Source of the DNA: Burkholderia diffusa | GTDB lineage: Bacteria; Pseudomonadota; Gammaproteobacteria; Burkholderiales; Burkholderiaceae | Length of the DNA stretch: 64,000 bases | Direction: 5' to 3' | Assembly (NCBI RefSeq): GCF_001718315.1 | Contig: NZ_CP013363.1 | Span: 868,001 to 932,000 of the forward strand | Part shown: one piece after another, positions 1,016 through 9,030 of the stretch | How positions within the stretch are numbered: position 1 is the stretch's first letter | Layout: each line of letters begins with the position of its first letter | Program-made: the position numbers and the translations under genes | Notes under the pieces: model-generated | The model's database searches: none | What the model was told of the DNA's origin: nothing | What the model saw: the letters and a program-made list of their open reading frames with translations, nothing else

Positions 1016-1070
1016 AAAAAGGCCCTTGCTGAACTGAACCCCGAGAATCGGACAGTTCATGCGGGCCTTT
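1016..1070 (-). terminator. Intrinsic terminator of the phosphonate operon
   Basis: Read on the minus strand, the arms AAGGCCC and GGGCCTT, with an inner pair TGAACTG/CAGTTCA, form a long stem followed by a T run (A run at 1016-1020 on the plus strand). It begins about 20 bases past the stop of the transaminase gene and closes the seven-gene operon. Confidence 0.75.
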
Positions 1071-1090: not shown

Positions 1091-2155
1091 TTACCGCGTC
1101 AGTGCCGTAAAACCGTCCAGCAGCCGCTCGACGTCGGCCGCACCAATCGCGCCCATCGTCGAGATGCGGAACAGTTCCTTCGACAACCCGCCTTGCCCCG
1201 CATAGATCACGAAGCCGCGCGCCTTCAGGCCGTCGTGCAGCGTCTCGTACGTGACGCCCTGCGGCAGCCGGTACGCGCGCAGCACGACCGACGATGCGCC
1301 TTCGGGCAGCACGAGCGGCATCCCGCGCGCCGCGAGGCCGGCCTGCGCCTGATCGGCGAGCGCCTTGTAGTGCGCATGGCGCGCTCGCCAGCCACCGGCT
1401 TCATCGAACTCGCGCAGTGCCTCGACGAGCGCGTAATACGCGTGCACGGATGGCGTGAACGGCGTATTGCGCTGATCCTGCAGCTTCGCGAGACGGCCGA
1501 GGTCGAGGTAGTAGGTGCGGCTCGCGGCCTTTGCGAGTGCGCTGCGGCGCACGATCACGAACGCGGCGCCGGGCACGCCGTGCAGACACTTGTTCGCGGT
1601 CGCCGCGACCGCGTCGATCACGCCGCCGGCGAAGTCGATCGCTTCGGCGCCGAAGCTGCTGACGCCGTCGACGAGCATTTTGACGCCGCGCGCGCGGCAT
1701 ACGTCCGCGATCGCACCGAGGTTGTTCAGCCGGCCGGTCGTCGTTTCGTGATGAATCACCGCGACGTGCGAATAACCGCCCGCGTCGAGACGCGCGGCGA
1801 TCTGCGCGAGATCGGGCGCCTGCATCCACTCATGCTTGAGCACGTCATGCGCGATTCCGTACTGCGTGGCAATCTGCGTAATCCGTTCGCCGTACACGCC
1901 GTTCTCGATCACGAGCAGTTTGCCGTCCTGCGGCACGAGCGCCGCGATCATGCTTTCGACGGCGGCGGTACCCGAGCCGGTCATCAGCACGGCGGCCCAT
2001 TCGGCCGGATCGAGCTCGTACGCGGCAACGAGGCGCGCACGCGCTTCATCCTGAAGATCGAAGAATTCGCTTTCGCGATGGCACAGGTCAGGTTGCAGCA
2101 GGCTGCGGCGCACGCGTTCCGTCAGCGTTACCGGGCCGGGGTTCAGCAGCAGCAT
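1091..2155 (-). CDS. phnW: 2-aminoethylphosphonate-pyruvate transaminase (biosynthetic role)
   Basis: PLP-dependent class V aminotransferase that interconverts phosphonoacetaldehyde and 2-aminoethylphosphonate (2-AEP). The 354-residue protein begins [10 protein letters not shown], the family's usual N-terminus, has HHETTTG at 135-141, and carries the PLP lysine in TANKCLHGVPG (Lys189). The ATG at 2155 overlaps the TGA of the decarboxylase gene in a TGATG junction; a TTG one codon upstream is less likely. PhnW is best known from 2-AEP breakdown, but phosphonoacetaldehyde hydrolase (PhnX) is absent and the PEP mutase and decarboxylase are present. I therefore infer it runs toward 2-AEP, the AepZ role. 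Last gene of the operon. Confidence 0.9.
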   Translation of the reverse strand: MLLLNPGPVTLTERVRRSLLQPDLCHRESEFFDLQDEARARLVAAYELDPAEWAAVLMTGSGTAAVESMIAALVPQDGKLLVIENGVYGERITQIATQYGIAHDVLKHEWMQAPDLAQIAARLDAGGYSHVAVIHHETTTGRLNNLGAIADVCRARGVKMLVDGVSSFGAEAIDFAGGVIDAVAATANKCLHGVPGAAFVIVRRSALAKAASRTYYLDLGRLAKLQDQRNTPFTPSVHAYYALVEALREFDEAGGWRARHAHYKALADQAQAGLAARGMPLVLPEGASSVVLRAYRLPQGVTYETLHDGLKARGFVIYAGQGGLSKELFRISTMGAIGAADVERLLDGFTALTR

Positions 2156-3342
2156 CAATGGACTCCTTCAGCATGGGCTTCAGCCTGTGCGGCGCCGATA
2201 TGCCGCATCAGGCGGGTCTTGACCTCGACCGGCGTGACGGTCGGGCGGGGCAGGCCGTCGGGCACGCCCGTGCGGATGGCAAGCCGCACGAAGCGCGTAC
2301 CGTCTGCCGAATGCGCGGCGTCGAGCGCCGCATCGAGCACGTCGAGCGTGTCGCCTTCGATGGCCGACGCATAGCCGCAGGCGGCCGCGACGCCGGCGAA
2401 CGACACATGCCGTGACACGGTCGCCTGCCCGCCGGTCGATTCGTGTGCGCCGTTGTCGAGCAGCACGTGCACGAGGTTGGACGGACCGTAGGTGCCGAGC
2501 GTCGCGAACGCGCCCATGCGCATCAGCGCGGCGCCGTCGCCGTCGACGGCCACCACGCGCAGGTCGGGGCGCGCGAGCGCGAGACCCAGCGCGAGCGGCG
2601 TCACGCAGCCCATTGAGCCGACCATGTACAACTGGTTCGGGCGATCGTCGATGGCATAGAGTTCGCGGCCGCAGAAACCGGTCGATGCAAGCACGACGGT
2701 CGAATCGACCGGCGTATGCGCGATCACGCGCTGCAGCGCATCGTGGCGGGTCGGCCACGCGGCGGATGCGTCGGCGCGTGCCGCCGACTGCGCGGCGACA
2801 TGCGCGCGCGGTGCCGCCGCCGGGTTCGCCTTCAATTCATACGGCGCGACGCTGCCCTTCTGCATCACGAGCGCGTACGGGCGGCCCGTTGCGTCCATGT
2901 GCGCGATCGCGCGGTCAAGCGCCGCGCCGACCTGTTCGGGCTCGGTCGGGAACGTCTCCCACGGGATCTCCATCGTGTCGAGCATCGCCGGCGTGATCGG
3001 ACCCATCAGCGCGTGCTGCGGCTCGTCGGCCACGCCCGGCTGACCGCGCCACGTGACGATCAGCAACTGCGGCAGCCGGAACGTCCAGGTCAGCGAGGTG
3101 AGCGGGCTCACCGCGTTGCCGAGCCCCGAGTTCTGCATCATCGCGATCCCGCGCTTGCCGCCGAGCGTGGCGCCGGCGATCAACGCGACCGCGTCGCCTT
3201 CATTCGCGGCCGACAGGTAATGCAGCGTCGGATCCTGCAGCACGTAGTTGATGAACGGCGTCAGGTACGAACAGGGCACGCCCGCATACCAGTCGAAGCC
3301 GCGTTCGCGCGCGGCCTCGACGAACTGGGCCGCTTCGATCAT
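2155..3342 (-). CDS. aepY: Phosphonopyruvate decarboxylase
   Basis: Thiamine-diphosphate enzyme that decarboxylates phosphonopyruvate to phosphonoacetaldehyde, the irreversible step that pulls the unfavourable PEP mutase reaction forward. The 395 residues show the N-terminal pyrimidine-binding half ([32 protein letters not shown]) and the C-terminal ThDP-Mg motif starting [14 protein letters not shown], with the matching Asn in [13 protein letters not shown]. Length and motifs fit the family (typically near 380 residues). Its ATG overlaps the stop of the PEP mutase gene as ATGA (3339-3342), which suggests translational coupling. Its presence excludes a purely phosphonopyruvate-degrading role for the locus. 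Confidence 0.92.
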
Positions 3343-5024
3343 TGCGCGCCCCCGTTGCCGGCGCCCGGCTCGGACAGCGGCGTCTGGCCGTGCGCGAAGT
3401 CGCCCGCACGGCGGAAGTCTTCCAGATCGTTCACGCCACGCCAGTGGCCGTGCACGTACTGCACCTCGATCTTCTCGCCGGCGGCGATCAGTTCGTTGAG
3501 CAGCGACGGGATGTCGAGCGTGTCGAAATCGGGCCGCGCCTGCAGCGTCGCGAGCATCGCCTTCAGGCGGTCGACGCCCGCGCCGCGCACGTTCAGCAGA
3601 CCGATCCAGCGCCCGTGCGGCGTGCCTGCGGCGACGTCGCTCGATACACGTTGCAGATACGTTTTCTGACCGAACAGGCCGCGGTCGTCAGCGGCCGAGC
3701 ACTGCGCGAAGTCGCGCACGCTCTGGTTGGTCTCGGTGAGCGACGAATCGACGACGACGCTGAACTCGGCTTCGCTCTCCGCGAGGTCGCGCAGGATGTA
3801 GCTGCGGAACAGCAGGTCGCCGTACGAGATCACGGTGTCGCCGGTCAGGCGTTCGGCCGCGCATGCGAGCGACGCGAGTTCGCCCGTTTGCGCATGGCGC
3901 TCGTTGACGACGAGCTTGATGCCCGACGTGTCGATCGCGTCGGCGCGATAGCCGCCGACCACGGTGATGTCGTTCACGCCATGCTTCTTGAAGCCGTCGA
4001 CGAGCCAGCGCAGGAGCGGCTTGCCGGCGACCGGCAGCATGACCTTGGGCTTGTCCTCGGTGACGGCTTCCAGCCCCTTGCCGCGGCTGGCCGCGAGCAC
4101 GATCGCCGCGTTCGACGCGCGCGACGATGACGACAGGTAGATGCGCTCGGCTGCCGAGTATTCGTCGGCGTCCTGCAGGCGGAAGATTTCGTTGACCGAT
4201 GCGACGCGATCCTCGACGTTGATCAGCGTCTCGTTTTCGTGGATCTCGCGTGCGACGGACTGCATTGCCGATGCCGACGCGCGGATCAGGTGGTTCGCCC
4301 AGATCACGGTGCTGATGCCGGCCTGGCGGAACACGTCGGTCGGCGTGCTGTAGTACTTGGTCGGCACGATCACGAGCGGCGCGCGGCCGCTCCATTCGCG
4401 TGCGAACTGCAGGATCTCGTCCGGACGCGACAGCTTGCTGTGAATCAGGATCGCGTCGGCGCCGGCTTCCGCGTACGCGTTTGCGCGGCGCAGCGCCTCA
4501 TCCATTCCCCAACCGGCGATCAGCGCTTCGACGCGCGCGACGATCGAGAAATCGGGATCGCTCTGCGAATCCTTGCCGGCCTTGATCTTGCCGCAGAACT
4601 CGTCGATCTCGGCGAGCGGCTGGCGCTCGCCGTCGATGAAGCTGTTCGTCTTCGGGAACTGCTTGTCCTCGATGCACACGCCGGCGATGCCGCGCTGCTC
4701 GAGCTTCTTCACGAGGCGGCGCACGTTGTTGAAGTTGCCGTAGCCGGTGTCGCCGTCGAGCAGGATCGGCAGGTCGCTCGCGTCGGCCATGAACTCGAGC
4801 ACGTCGACGACCTGCGTCCAGCTCGCTTCGTTGTTGTCGCGCACGCCGAACTGCGCGGAGATCGCGAGGCCCGACGCCCAGATCCCCTTGAAGCCGGCTT
4901 CGCGGACGATCCGTGCCGACAGGCCGTTGTGCGCTTCCATCAGGAATTCGAGGTCGCTGCTGACGAGCATGCGGCGCAGGCGTGCGCTGCGCGATTCGGA
5001 GAAGTTGGGTTCGCGTGCGTTCAT
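3339..5024 (-). CDS. pepM: PEP mutase fused to a nucleotidyltransferase (probable 2-AEP cytidylyltransferase)
   Basis: Two-domain, 561-residue protein. Residues 15-300 are PEP mutase, which isomerises PEP to phosphonopyruvate. They show [10 protein letters not shown] (88-97) and the diagnostic [10 protein letters not shown] (119-128), which separates true mutases from isocitrate-lyase-like relatives. Residues 307-560 are an NTP-transferase fold with LAASRGKGL...[15 protein letters not shown], a variant of the usual GxGxR...PK signature. Such fusions are known in phosphonate clusters, where the second domain (PntC type) makes CMP-AEP from CTP and 2-AEP. An upstream in-frame extension over the preceding gene is open, but the ATG at 5024 overlaps that gene's stop as ATGA and leads straight into conserved sequence. 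Confidence 0.9.
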
Positions 5025-5788
5025 CGTGCGGCTCCTGCGGTCGTGCGTTGAATCAGGGGGAGAATTTCTTGCGTGGCGCGGGCGACGTCGTTCGGGAAGT
5101 CGATCTCGATCCACGGCGAGCCCGTGACGTCGGCGACGTCGAACGAATGGCCGCCTTCGAGCAGCAGGTCGCGCACGGCTTCCTCGTGCGGCATGTTCGC
5201 ACGGCCGCTGTCGACGTAGCCCGCGACGATCGTCGCGAGGCGGCGCGCGGTACCTTCGGTGAAGCGGAAGAAGCCGACCGACTCGCCGATCGTGTCGTAC
5301 TCGAGGTCGACCGCGAGCTGCTTGCGCAGCTCGACCGGCACGCCGTTCTTCAGGCACAGCTTGACGGGCTCGTCGCCGGCCTCGAAGTCGCGATCGATCA
5401 GCAGGCGGTCGACCGCCTTGTCGGAATCGGCCACCAGCGCGTGCAGGATGTTCTCGTCGTACAGCACGTCCGCGTCCATCAGCAGCACGTCGCCGCCGCG
5501 CGTCATCGCATCGGCGACGGTGTGCACGGTCAGCACGCTGCCGAGGTCGTAGCGCTCGTTGATCACGATCTCGGCGCGGCGGCCGAGGCGCTTCAGCTCC
5601 TGCTCGACCTTCTCGTGCTGGAAGCCGAGCCCGAGCACGATTTCATCGACACCCGCGGCGTCGAGCACGCGCAGATGGCGTTCGAGCAGCGATACGTCGT
5701 CGAAGCGCAGCAGGCACTTCGGGAATTGCGCCTCGGGCGGTTGTTGCAGGCGCAAGCCGAGGCCTGCCGCAAGAATGATGGCTCGCAT
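5021..5788 (-). CDS. Stand-alone nucleotidyltransferase of the phosphonate operon
   Basis: A 255-residue NTP-transferase with the family start [14 protein letters not shown], the basic PK of [11 protein letters not shown], and the metal-binding aspartate in [10 protein letters not shown]. It probably links a phosphate or phosphonate group to CMP or another NMP. Because the next gene already has such a domain, this one may activate a second building block, for example an alcohol phosphate or sugar phosphate, or may be the true 2-AEP cytidylyltransferase. The start at 5788 has GGAG upstream and is preferred over a GTG/ATG-like extension to 5803. The gene lies 36 bases after the flippase-like gene and overlaps the PEP mutase gene by four bases. 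Confidence 0.8.
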
Positions 5789-5824
5789 GGGTTCTCCAAC
5801 CAAAAAGCCGGCGGATCTGAACGA

Positions 5825-6826
5825 TCAGTCGGCGATGGGCTGCGGCGCGCGGCGCCGCTGCCAGTTTCTTTCACTGAAATGCAGATAGAGCAGTCCCGGC
5901 AGGCCCAGCGCGAGTTCGCGCGCGCGCTTCGCGAGCGATAGCGCGAGCGCCGCGTCGGGCGGCAGGCCGACCAGCGGGGCGAGCAACAGGTAACCGCCTT
6001 CCTGGGCGCCGAGCGAGCCGGGAATCGCGAATGCCGCACCGCGAATCGCCTGGCCGACGCTTTCGAGCAGCAGCGCGTCGAGCCAGCTGACCGGGTGCCC
6101 GAGGAAGTGCAGCGCGAGCCACACTTCGGCGGTGCCGACGATCCAGCCGACGAGGCTCAACGCGAAGGTCTTCGCGACCTTCGCGCGATCACGGTACAGC
6201 GCGCCGACGGCGTCGTCGATCGCGTCCGCGCGGGCCGCGAGCGACGACCAGTCGCGCGGGCCGAGCAACTTCGACGCGAGACGCAACCCGCGACCGAACA
6301 GCCCGCGCCGCTGCGCCACGTAGAACGCGACGGCGAGGGCGCCGAGCACGCCGGTGGCGATCAGCGCCGGCGTGCGCAGGTGAGCGACGGACTCGTGCGT
6401 TGCATACAGGCTGAACGTGGCGATGCCGATCAGCGCGAAAGCCATCTGGGCGAGCGCCTGCATCGTCGTGCTGACGGTGACCGCGGCGGCTGCATCGGCC
6501 ATCCGCGTGCCGCGCTGCGCGAGGTGACGCACCATCAGCACCGGGCCGCCGATCTGCCCGGCGGGCAGCAGGCTGTTCACCGATTCCCCGACCCAGCGCG
6601 CGCGCAGCGCGTCGCCGAGCTCCGCGCCCGGCTGGCCGCGGCGAAACATCGCCGAGATCGCCAGCGCGTCGATCACGAGCGGTACGACGTGGAATGCCGC
6701 GACGAGCGCGAGGCCCCAGCCGGCCGCGAGAAACGTCGACGCGACCGCGCCGACGCCCTGCCACGCGAGCAGGGCGACGAACAGTGCCGTTCCGAGGGAC
6801 AGCAGGATCAGGCCGGCGCGTGTCAT
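5825..6826 (-). CDS. Flippase-like / lysylphosphatidylglycerol-synthase-type membrane protein
   Basis: A 333-residue polytopic inner-membrane protein of the LPG-synthase transmembrane (UPF0104, HpnL-like) family. About eight hydrophobic helices are visible, beginning with GLILLSLGTALFVALLA after the initial MTRA. Family marks include the charged segment RWVGESVNSLLPAGQIGGP (residues 88-106) and GSLGAQEGGYLLLAPL near 270. Members occur in hopanoid, lipid and glycolipid loci and are proposed to move lipids across the membrane or act with lipid-modifying enzymes. No MprF-type aminoacyl-transferase domain is present. The ATG at 6826 overlaps the oxygenase stop as ATGA. In this operon I infer export or flipping of the finished phosphonolipid. 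Confidence 0.72.
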   Translation of the reverse strand: MTRAGLILLSLGTALFVALLAWQGVGAVASTFLAAGWGLALVAAFHVVPLVIDALAISAMFRRGQPGAELGDALRARWVGESVNSLLPAGQIGGPVLMVRHLAQRGTRMADAAAAVTVSTTMQALAQMAFALIGIATFSLYATHESVAHLRTPALIATGVLGALAVAFYVAQRRGLFGRGLRLASKLLGPRDWSSLAARADAIDDAVGALYRDRAKVAKTFALSLVGWIVGTAEVWLALHFLGHPVSWLDALLLESVGQAIRGAAFAIPGSLGAQEGGYLLLAPLVGLPPDAALALSLAKRARELALGLPGLLYLHFSERNWQRRRAPQPIAD

Positions 6827-7632
6827 GACCCGGTCGACCGTCGCGTGGCCAGCTGCTTGAACACCTGGCGGAAACCGAAATACGCGATCGCGTCCTTCAT
6901 GTTCGAGATGAAGCGCTTCCACGGCCGCATGCCGGGGTTGGTCACGTATTCGAAGGTGAGCGACACGCGCGTCTCGTTCTGGCCGAGCGGCGTGACGCGA
7001 TGGCGAAGCTTGTCGCCGTCGAACAGCACGATGCCGCCGTCAGCGATCTGCACGGAGCCCGGTTCGTCGGGCACGTCCGGATTGCGCGTATGCAGCTCGT
7101 AGTCGAGCCGGCACGACGACTCGTCGATCACGCCGATCAGCAGCGTATAGCGGCGGCCGTCGTAGTACGACGTGTCGTAGTGCCAGCCGATATGGTCGCC
7201 CGGCTTCGTGTAGTAGTACAGCGCGTACGCGTGCGGATCGTCGTCCGGCGACAGCATCAGCTTGTCGCCGGTGATCTTCTCGAGGAAGCCGATCAGCGCC
7301 TTCGACCGGTACAGCTCGGCGATGTATGGCGCCTGTTCGTCGATCGTGTGCCGGCTCACGCTGCCGCCCTGCTTGTGGCCGGGCAGGTAATTGCGGTTCA
7401 GGCCGGCCTGCATCGCGCGGGCGGCGGCCGCGAGCTTCGCGTGCGCGTCGGCCGGCAGGAAGGCGTCGAGGTACAGGAACGACCCTTGGCGCGTGTAGTC
7501 ACCGTGCAGGCGGTCGAGGTCGAGACGGCCGACGCAGTCTGCCACGGTGCGATCGGGATCGGCCGCTGCCGCGCGCACAGGCGCGGGGCGTGCCGGGCTC
7601 AGCACGGAGTCGTCGCGCGTGCTAGGAGTCAT
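6823..7632 (-). CDS. 2-oxoglutarate/Fe(II) oxygenase, probable phosphonolipid-tailoring hydroxylase
   Basis: A 269-residue double-stranded beta-helix oxygenase. The iron ligands are readable as His151-Tyr-Asp153 (GWHYDTSYYDG) and His211 (KLRHRVTP), with Arg222 (TRVSLTF) as the likely 2-oxoglutarate anchor. It resembles the group labelled HalD/BesD-like, but those halogenases have Gly in place of the Asp ligand. The Asp here predicts hydroxylation. Within this operon the substrate may be the C1 carbon of the 2-AEP headgroup or a fatty-acyl or alcohol part of the lipid; 1-hydroxy-2-AEP lipids are known from Acanthamoeba. Start overlaps the stop of the CDP-alcohol transferase gene by four bases. 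Confidence 0.8.
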   Translation of the reverse strand: MTPSTRDDSVLSPARPAPVRAAAADPDRTVADCVGRLDLDRLHGDYTRQGSFLYLDAFLPADAHAKLAAAARAMQAGLNRNYLPGHKQGGSVSRHTIDEQAPYIAELYRSKALIGFLEKITGDKLMLSPDDDPHAYALYYYTKPGDHIGWHYDTSYYDGRRYTLLIGVIDESSCRLDYELHTRNPDVPDEPGSVQIADGGIVLFDGDKLRHRVTPLGQNETRVSLTFEYVTNPGMRPWKRFISNMKDAIAYFGFRQVFKQLATRRSTGS

Positions 7633-8387
7633 TTGGAAGCCTGGATTTCGGTTGAACTTTGAGCGCCCCCGGACCTGTCGCTGCGCGCCAGGCCCGCCGA
7701 GGGGGACACGAAAACTTCGGGCGGCCCGGCGTTTTCATGCGCAACGCCGCTCCGGCGAACGATGCGCCACCAGTCGATCACGACCCACGCGGCGAACAGC
7801 GGGGCGCCGATCGATGCCGCGAGCAGGAACGGCTGGACGCCGTCGACGAGCGTCACGATCGGCAGCAGGTAGAGCACGTCTTCCGTCTCGAAGCCGCCGG
7901 CGAACGCCTGTTTGGTGCCGGCCTTGCCGGCGACCGATTCGATCCGCATGCGCAGGAAGAAGATCAGCGCGACGGCCGCGCCGGCCACCGCGCCAAGCAG
8001 CACCGGCGACGCGGCCATCTGGCCGCCCTGGGCGACGATGCCGACGCCCATGCTGACAAACAGCGCGACCGTCACAAGCGCGTCGGCCGCGAGGTCGTAA
8101 AAGTGACCGATCTTGCTGGACTTGCCGCTGATGCGCGCGAGTTCGCCGTCGGTGTGGTCGACGAAGTTCGACAGCACGATCAGGAATGCGCCGGCGTTGC
8201 TCCAGCCAAAGCCGCCTTGCGCGAGGCACCAGGCGCCGGCGAGGCCGATCAGCAGACGAAGGGTGGTGAGGTGATTCGGGGTAACGGGCGTGTCGATCAG
8301 CGGTCGGACGAGCGAGCGCGCGAGCCGCGCATCCCAGGTGCGTGGCAGGGGCGGTTCGGAACGTGTTGCGTTTTTTCTTTGGTCCAT
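7629..8387 (-). CDS. CDP-alcohol phosphatidyltransferase family membrane enzyme
   Basis: First gene of the phosphonate operon, 252 residues. It carries the complete family signature DGxxARx8GxxxDxxxD: Asp80-Gly81, Ala84-Arg85, Gly94, Asp98 and the catalytic Asp102, in SNFVDHTDGELAR...GHFYDLAAD. Several hydrophobic helices flank it. Enzymes of this family join a CMP-activated headgroup or lipid to an alcohol. Paired with a CMP-2-AEP-forming enzyme, the expected product is a 2-AEP lipid, a C-P analogue of phosphatidylethanolamine, but the acceptor is an inference. A much longer open frame runs upstream to 8657 without family similarity. The ATG at 8387 opens the conserved part, although no strong ribosome site precedes it. 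Confidence 0.85.
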   Translation of the reverse strand: MDQRKNATRSEPPLPRTWDARLARSLVRPLIDTPVTPNHLTTLRLLIGLAGAWCLAQGGFGWSNAGAFLIVLSNFVDHTDGELARISGKSSKIGHFYDLAADALVTVALFVSMGVGIVAQGGQMAASPVLLGAVAGAAVALIFFLRMRIESVAGKAGTKQAFAGGFETEDVLYLLPIVTLVDGVQPFLLAASIGAPLFAAWVVIDWWRIVRRSGVAHENAGPPEVFVSPSAGLARSDRSGGAQSSTEIQASK

Positions 8388-9030
8388 CGGCGAAATATAT
8401 ACGGAATTGTAATTTGTTGCTTTTTCTTCGACCAATGTCCTGACATACGGGAGTGTTACCGCGCATTCCGGGCATCGGCCGGTTGCAAACCGCCTGCGCG
8501 AAACGGCGTTCGCGCTGGCGGGCCTTACCTGATCCAGTGTGGTTCGCGGCACGCGGCTGTCAAGGGCGGACGGGCCTTGTACGCGGGCCTGGCGGCGATT
8601 CGCGCGTGTCGACGCATTGATGTGCATCAGGCTCGCAAAAGCCGGGGCGGGTGACAATCGGCCGCGGCGATCGCCGATCGGCCATCGCGTGCGGATTCTT
8701 CGCGTTCATGCGGTTAATCCGGGCATCTGTGGGCCGATTGACGGTCAGCCGTTCGTAATTTTCACGCGGAAAACTGGCAGTCAGCTTTCCCGCACCTTTC
8801 GGACGCATGCGTTTGAGGCTGCCGCGGCTGTCACAGAACTGTCGTTCGATACCCGGTGCATTCAGCAAGTGTCTTTTGCATCCGGCGGACATTTCGCGGC
8901 GATGGCCTCTGCGATACTCCGACCGTGCCCGTGGTGCCGGGCCGCCCCTCGCGGCCCCAAGGGCTTCGCGTCGCTCAGGAGACACCCCCCGCGACGTCAA
9001 CGACAGACCAAAAGCGTCAGATATACAGCC
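8388..9030. other. Divergent intergenic region between phosphonate operon and CoA-transferase gene
   Basis: 643 bases between two divergent genes, so it must hold promoters for both. The first ~60 bases beside the phosphonate operon are AT-rich (aatatatacg, aatttgttgcttttt), a likely promoter or leader for that operon. I found no gene with family similarity; the open frames present lack ribosome sites and look like GC-rich chance frames. No clear palindromic operator was seen. Confidence 0.5.

Follow-up and report, generated by a model that had tools for sequence, protein, structure and literature searches.

Which product does Burkholderia diffusa make from an operon in which genes for phosphonate synthesis stand beside those for a head group transferase and a putative flippase? 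The operon occupies positions 1,091 to 8,387 of the window, as we call the whole analysed stretch of 64,000 nucleotides (contig NZ_CP013363.1, positions 868,001 to 932,000), and encodes a CDP-alcohol phosphotransferase (CDPAP), a 2-oxoglutarate (2OG)/Fe(II) oxygenase (OG2), an HpnL-family membrane protein (FLIP), a nucleotidyltransferase (NTP), a phosphoenolpyruvate mutase fused to a second nucleotidyltransferase domain (PEPM), a phosphonopyruvate decarboxylase (PPD) and a 2-aminoethylphosphonate aminotransferase (AEPT). An earlier note, made from the sequence of the window alone, had proposed that these genes build a phosphonate analogue of phosphatidylethanolamine. We judge it rather probable that the operon makes and exports a hydroxylated aminoethylphosphonate lipid. 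When the chemical steps are read from the families of the proteins, PepM, Ppd and AEPT would convert phosphoenolpyruvate to 2-aminoethylphosphonate (AEP), and the separate, PntC-like NTP would activate AEP as its CMP ester. OG2 would hydroxylate the carbon next to the phosphorus, with AEP, its CMP ester and the completed lipid as candidate substrates. As in the Kennedy pathway, CDPAP would transfer the (1-hydroxy-)AEP moiety of the CMP ester to an alcohol among the membrane lipids, with diacylglycerol as the likeliest acceptor, and FLIP would flip the product across the membrane.

Joint Retention of the Lipid and Phosphonate Genes

Do the lipid genes and the phosphonate genes belong to one system? 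In a sample of 300 Burkholderiaceae genomes a CDPAP match is found in 186 and a strong PEPM match in 176. In the co-occurrence table, from which seven weak CDPAP matches were left out, 175 genomes have both, 4 CDPAP only, 1 PEPM only and 120 neither (Fisher p about 5e-78, without correction for relatedness), and the PepM fusion is thus present in 175 of the 179 genomes with CDPAP. A candidate for PepM without CDPAP in genome G190 was rejected, its match of 275 bits lying under the PepM cut-off in the family search. One Burkholderia genome (G223) has neither CDPAP nor the PepM fusion and offers a natural comparison strain. The earlier note had proposed to look for PepM next to CDP-alcohol transferases across Burkholderia, and such a neighbourhood indeed recurs: Burkholderia, Cupriavidus, Trinickia and others share the order of all seven genes, which argues that the locus is not a chance assembly.

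Moreover, the genes are retained together where they are no longer neighbours. In Paraburkholderia (our genus g20, which includes Paraburkholderia sartisoli) CDPAP-OG2-FLIP-NTP are encoded at one site and PEPM-PPD-AEPT at a second, in many cases on a different contig. Both halves are found in 30 of the 33 CDPAP genomes of this genus and are unlinked in 30 of these 30. That the halves persist together although apart speaks more strongly for joint function than adjacency would.

The Oxygenase and the Identity of the Head Group

What could a 2OG oxygenase contribute to such a pathway? The iron site HxD...H of OG2 is intact (H151/D153 and the distal H211) and the 2OG-binding R222 is also conserved. 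The folds nearest to its model (pLDDT 76) are HalD, HalB, HalA, BesD and the lysine hydroxylase 'Hydrox', enzymes that act on small, free amino acids. A halogenase of the HalD/BesD type was considered and rejected because OG2 has an HxD motif and not HxG or HxA: it reads HYD where HalD reads HWG, and the metal-binding Asp absent from the halogenases is present. The motif thus marks OG2 as a predicted hydroxylase of the HalD fold.

Two observations connect this hydroxylase to the transferase and to phosphonates. First, in genus g11 CDPAP and OG2 are fused in one protein of 496-509 amino acids in 4 of the 4 loci read (L117-L120). Second, in three loci from two other Burkholderiales families (L181, L182, L183) a PhyH-type oxygenase occupies the OG2 slot between CDPAP and NTP; a further locus outside Burkholderiaceae (L180) retains an OG2 homologue. 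The best NCBIfam match of the PhyH-type oxygenases of L182 and L183, the two proteins scanned, is the methylphosphonate hydroxylase PhnY* with 192-200 bits, under the equivalog cut-off of 500, the next family reaching 35-43 bits; the likeness to PhnY* was judged by this NCBIfam model, PhnY* being absent from the PDB matches. The reaction of PhnY* is the hydroxylation of AEP at its alpha carbon (PMC10574752). OG2 would share this reaction with PhnY*, but it belongs to PF23169/PF13640, the HalD group, and not to the PhyH family of PhnY*, and no PhnZ follows it. From the fusion with CDPAP and the exchange for a PhnY*-type hydroxylase we infer that the oxygenase belongs to the pathway, that its step is the alpha-hydroxylation of the AEP unit, and that the head group is probably 1-hydroxy-2-AEP rather than plain AEP. 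OG2 would then represent a second, unrelated family of AEP alpha-hydroxylases, biosynthetic and acting with CDPAP to yield a 1-hydroxy-AEP glycerolipid for which FLIP serves as flippase and which most larger Burkholderiaceae genera would make. To this fuller proposal we give an even chance.

Alternatively, the lipid could carry plain AEP as a phosphonate analogue of phosphatidylethanolamine, as the earlier note had it, with the oxygenase hydroxylating a fatty acyl chain. Lipids with 2-hydroxy acyl chains occur in Burkholderia, and the CDPAP-OG2 fusion would suit an enzyme with the completed lipid as its substrate just as well. A PhnY*-like phosphonate hydroxylase in the oxygenase slot of two other families and a fold closest to oxygenases of free amino acids speak against an acyl substrate, and we consider a plain AEP lipid unlikely.

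Predicted Supply and Activation of Aminoethylphosphonate

The three enzymes of AEP supply all score above the NCBI curated family thresholds, which were also used for HpnL: PEPM passes the PepM model TIGR02320 with 407 bits (cut-off 319.55) and keeps the EDKxxxxxNS motif of PEP mutases, PPD passes TIGR03297 with 489 bits (cut-off 312.5), and AEPT passes TIGR03301 (PhnW-AepZ) with 393 bits (cut-off 360.8), a family match that is silent on the direction of the reaction. Another PepM cluster was sought in the genome and discounted, as no second EDKxxxxxNS protein is found among its six PF13714 matches. A role of the locus in phosphonate catabolism was likewise rejected. Searches of the whole genome for two breakdown enzymes found no PhnJ of the C-P lyase and no phosphonatase above the cut-off (best 54.5 against 220 bits), in agreement with the suggestion of the earlier note that the locus makes phosphonate and does not degrade it.

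Which of the two nucleotidyltransferases activates AEP? PntC enzymes make CMP-AEP (Rice 2019, PMC6697681). The best PDB match of NTP is the PntC of T. denticola (6pd1, 1.3e-11, over residues 7-251), and R18, K29 and K161 of NTP align with the catalytic R15, K25 and K153 of that enzyme, residues whose roles are taken from the same study. At the position of PntC Glu104 NTP has D110, an Asp as in LicC, which leaves room for phosphocholine beside AEP as its substrate. In contrast, the domain fused to PepM fails the PntC signature GxG(T/S)R...PK: it reads ASRGKGL where LicC reads AGLGTRL and has a Gly at the equivalent of R15, the Arg having moved, while the lysine of the PK motif is retained. Since the PntC residues are kept in NTP and the signature is altered in the fused domain, the separate NTP is the better candidate for the AEP cytidylyltransferase; activity of the fused domain may be low or altered, or this domain may have a regulatory role. 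With PepM, Ppd and AEPT above their curated cut-offs and NTP carrying PntC residues, the route from PEP through AEP to CMP-AEP put forward in the earlier note is supported. Fusion to a nucleotidyltransferase is found in most PepM enzymes, and some clusters contain both a fused and a separate nucleotidyltransferase (PMC6697681). The PntC tailoring clusters of A. rimae and O. uli share with the operon the PepM-nucleotidyltransferase fusion, a second nucleotidyltransferase nearby and CMP-AEP as the activated form; they differ in the transfer enzyme, as the published PntC clusters have LicD or glycosyltransferases and the Burkholderia operon has a CDP-alcohol phosphotransferase (PMC6697681).

A Dedicated Transferase and a Putative, Apparently Recruited Flippase

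CDPAP contains the full motif DxxDGxxAR(x8-9)GxxxDxxxD, and D77/D80/G81/A84/R85/G94/D98/D102 are kept in all or nearly all of 110 homologues. In the PDB the closest folds to its AlphaFold model (pLDDT 81.6) are AF2299 and PIP synthases. Could CDPAP be a housekeeping phospholipid synthase, the identity that the earlier note had named as speaking against its own reading? This candidate was rejected: separate housekeeping PgsA, PssA and Psd are encoded elsewhere in the genome, and CDPAP scores far under the cut-offs of the pgsA and pssA models. Given these separate enzymes, CDPAP is a dedicated, non-housekeeping transferase. The idea that this enzyme would place 2-AEP on a lipid is supported in so far as the transferase is a dedicated one, and is modified in the head group, which is likelier 1-hydroxy-2-AEP. 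The lipid acceptor is suggested by family membership to be most likely diacylglycerol, the nearest folds being compatible with more than one acceptor.

Two relatives of CDPAP may be mentioned here. Locus L182 contains two neighbouring CDPAP-family genes (L182:8606-9283 and L182:10895-11797) with a gene for a 359-residue protein in between, and the second of them may use another head group. The B. diffusa genome encodes a further CDP-alcohol phosphotransferase outside the known NCBIfam families (G000:C1:1344812-1345264, L163), adjoining an acyltransferase-like open reading frame (ORF) and a hydrolase/methyltransferase-like ORF.

FLIP passes the HpnL model TIGR03476 (375.6 against a cut-off of 195.65 bits) and shares this subfamily with the HpnL proteins of hopanoid clusters. 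The genome has three HpnL-family genes, one of which lies near HpnJ on C1, a separate replicon. FLIP itself sits outside the hopanoid cluster, as a paralogue inside the phosphonate operon, and a hopanoid link through FLIP was rejected because the HpnJ-associated HpnL is on a different replicon. Since another paralogue lies near HpnJ, FLIP was apparently co-opted into the phosphonate operon, where, as its family would predict, it probably flips the lipid product. The third HpnL-family gene (G000:C2:2130589-2131530; L159, L165) is found in a carbohydrate context that includes a sugar epimerase, and not among hopanoid genes.

Points Against a Phosphonolipid

Several points weigh against the scheme outlined above. 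Three g20 genomes, represented by L191 (G065), L192 (G219) and L193 (G243), have an intact CDPAP-OG2-FLIP-NTP half without any PepM; the lipid half is therefore perhaps not tied to AEP and may also run on scavenged or other head groups. It could be imagined that these four genes form a general head-group module that also uses scavenged phosphonate or phosphoethanolamine, with PepM-Ppd-AEPT as an optional supply, and the lack of linkage between the halves in g20 would fit such an arrangement. We regard it as very improbable, given that PepM is kept in nearly all CDPAP genomes and that NTP retains PntC-type residues.

Furthermore, the PDB relatives of CDPAP include IPCT-DIPPS besides the PIP synthases, and cholinephosphotransferases rank lower. 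The product of IPCT-DIPPS is not a lipid, and PIP synthases use CDP-diacylglycerol. The structural nearness to IPCT-DIPPS, among others, would also be consistent with a phosphonate destined for a non-lipid or lipid-linked glycan (a phosphonoglycan or a decoration of lipopolysaccharide), in which case the HpnL-type protein would move a lipid-linked intermediate. Glycan-directed PntC clusters have been described (Rice 2019, PMC6697681). In addition, on a Rhizobium rhizogenes plasmid (pC5.7d, L187, 8163-10424) a gene of the phosphocholine cytidylyltransferase family adjoins those for LicD and a PhnY*-like oxygenase in the vicinity of Ppd, by analogy perhaps a like logic aimed at a glycan. The seven genes of the operon hold no LicD and no glycosyltransferase, CDPAP, a member of the CDP-alcohol family, is a membrane protein with multiple helices, and the operon includes a flippase-like gene, so that a glycan acceptor is in our view decidedly unlikely.

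Finally, the literature found apparently contains no isolation of the lipid product from these bacteria, and the phosphonolipid scheme leaves the order of its steps unfixed, as hydroxylation could come either before or after transfer.

Organization and Expression Signals of the Operon

All seven predicted ORFs run on the minus strand from 8387 to 1091, as listed in Table 1 with corrected starts for FLIP (6826), NTP (5788), PEPM (5024) and AEPT (2155). Four gene junctions overlap by 4 bp (ATGA) and the PPD/AEPT junction by 1 bp; the sole intergenic gap, of 36 bp, precedes NTP. The hairpin 3' of AEPT has a long loop, for which reason a pattern scan had passed it over. Judged from this anatomy the seven genes are one transcription unit. 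Coordinates, domain searches, intact motifs and the hairpin thus bear out what the earlier note had described, namely seven same-strand genes of the named families in the named order, ending at a terminator.

Table 1. Genes and signals of the operon, positions in the window
Feature	Position	Strand	Evidence
CDPAP, membrane-bound CDP-alcohol phosphotransferase (252 aa)	7629..8387	-	PF01066 2.5e-14
OG2, predicted 2OG/Fe(II) hydroxylase, HalD-like fold, 269 aa	6823..7632	-	PF23169 1.8e-13
FLIP, HpnL-family membrane protein, proposed flippase	5825..6826	-	TIGR03476 375.6 bits; LPG_synthase_TM 3.9e-27
NTP, MobA-like NTP transferase, probable CTP:AEP cytidylyltransferase (PntC-like)	5021..5788	-	2.4e-13
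PEPM, PEP mutase fused to second nucleotidyltransferase domain (NTP_transf_3)	3339..5024	-	TIGR02320 407 bits
PPD, phosphonopyruvate decarboxylase	2155..3342	-	TIGR03297 489 bits
AEPT, 2-AEP aminotransferase	1091..2155	-	TIGR03301 393 bits
Intrinsic-terminator-like hairpin with U tract	1016..1070	-	sequence; fold -29.9 kcal/mol
Conserved GTATATATT, -10-like	8394..8402	-	6-8 bases before CDPAP start

How is the operon expressed? The octamer GTATATAT is found upstream of CDPAP in 107 of 129 loci, and with 114 copies only in the 2.49 Mb of DNA examined it is nearly confined to this site. Because the -10-like GTATATAT(T) element lies just 6-8 bases 5' of the CDPAP start and is not accompanied by a Shine-Dalgarno sequence, the CDPAP transcript may be leaderless. 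Co-regulation of the split halves through GTATATAT is unsupported, as the PepM half in Paraburkholderia does not have the octamer. Control by a Pho box was dismissed, a single site with 2 mismatches (8828-8845) being the number expected by chance.

Published Precedent and Implications

Phosphonolipid clusters of lichen Nostoc were described in 2018, reportedly by Gagunashvili and Andresson. A homologous Burkholderia cluster is drawn alongside them (PMC5987646, Fig. 7), and all seven gene types in the legend of that figure are present here: CDP-alcohol phosphatidyltransferase, 2OG oxygenase, hpnL, NTP transferase, pepM, ppd and AEPT. The pathway shown is adapted from Yu et al. 2013, and its abbreviations include HAEP (1-hydroxy-2-aminoethylphosphonate), DAG and AAG. 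As far as the figure legend and the accompanying text passages go, the cluster, Burkholderia included, and the prediction of a phosphonolipid were thus already published in 2018 (PMC5987646). HAEP head groups have also been reported in sphingophosphonolipids of Bdellovibrio stolpii (Watanabe 2001, cited in PMC8154272), which would have the head group in common with the proposed lipid; the ceramide backbone is theirs.

The text passages of PMC5987646 considered here mention neither the division of the operon, nor the fusion of transferase and oxygenase, nor the replacement of the oxygenase by one of the PhnY* type. Unlinked co-retention, fusion and oxygenase replacement are new support; they sharpen the prediction and do not reveal a new kind of system. 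The observation made in the earlier note is confirmed overall, and its interpretation, which omitted the oxygenase step, is supported in part; its prediction was already in print. From the separation of the halves, the fusion and the exchange of the oxygenase follow testable predictions on the assignment of enzymes to steps and on the 1-hydroxy-AEP head group. If these hold true, most larger Burkholderiaceae genera would contain a membrane lipid with a C-P bond that standard lipid work has apparently missed, and phospholipase resistance, surface charge and the cycling of phosphorus in soil could be affected.

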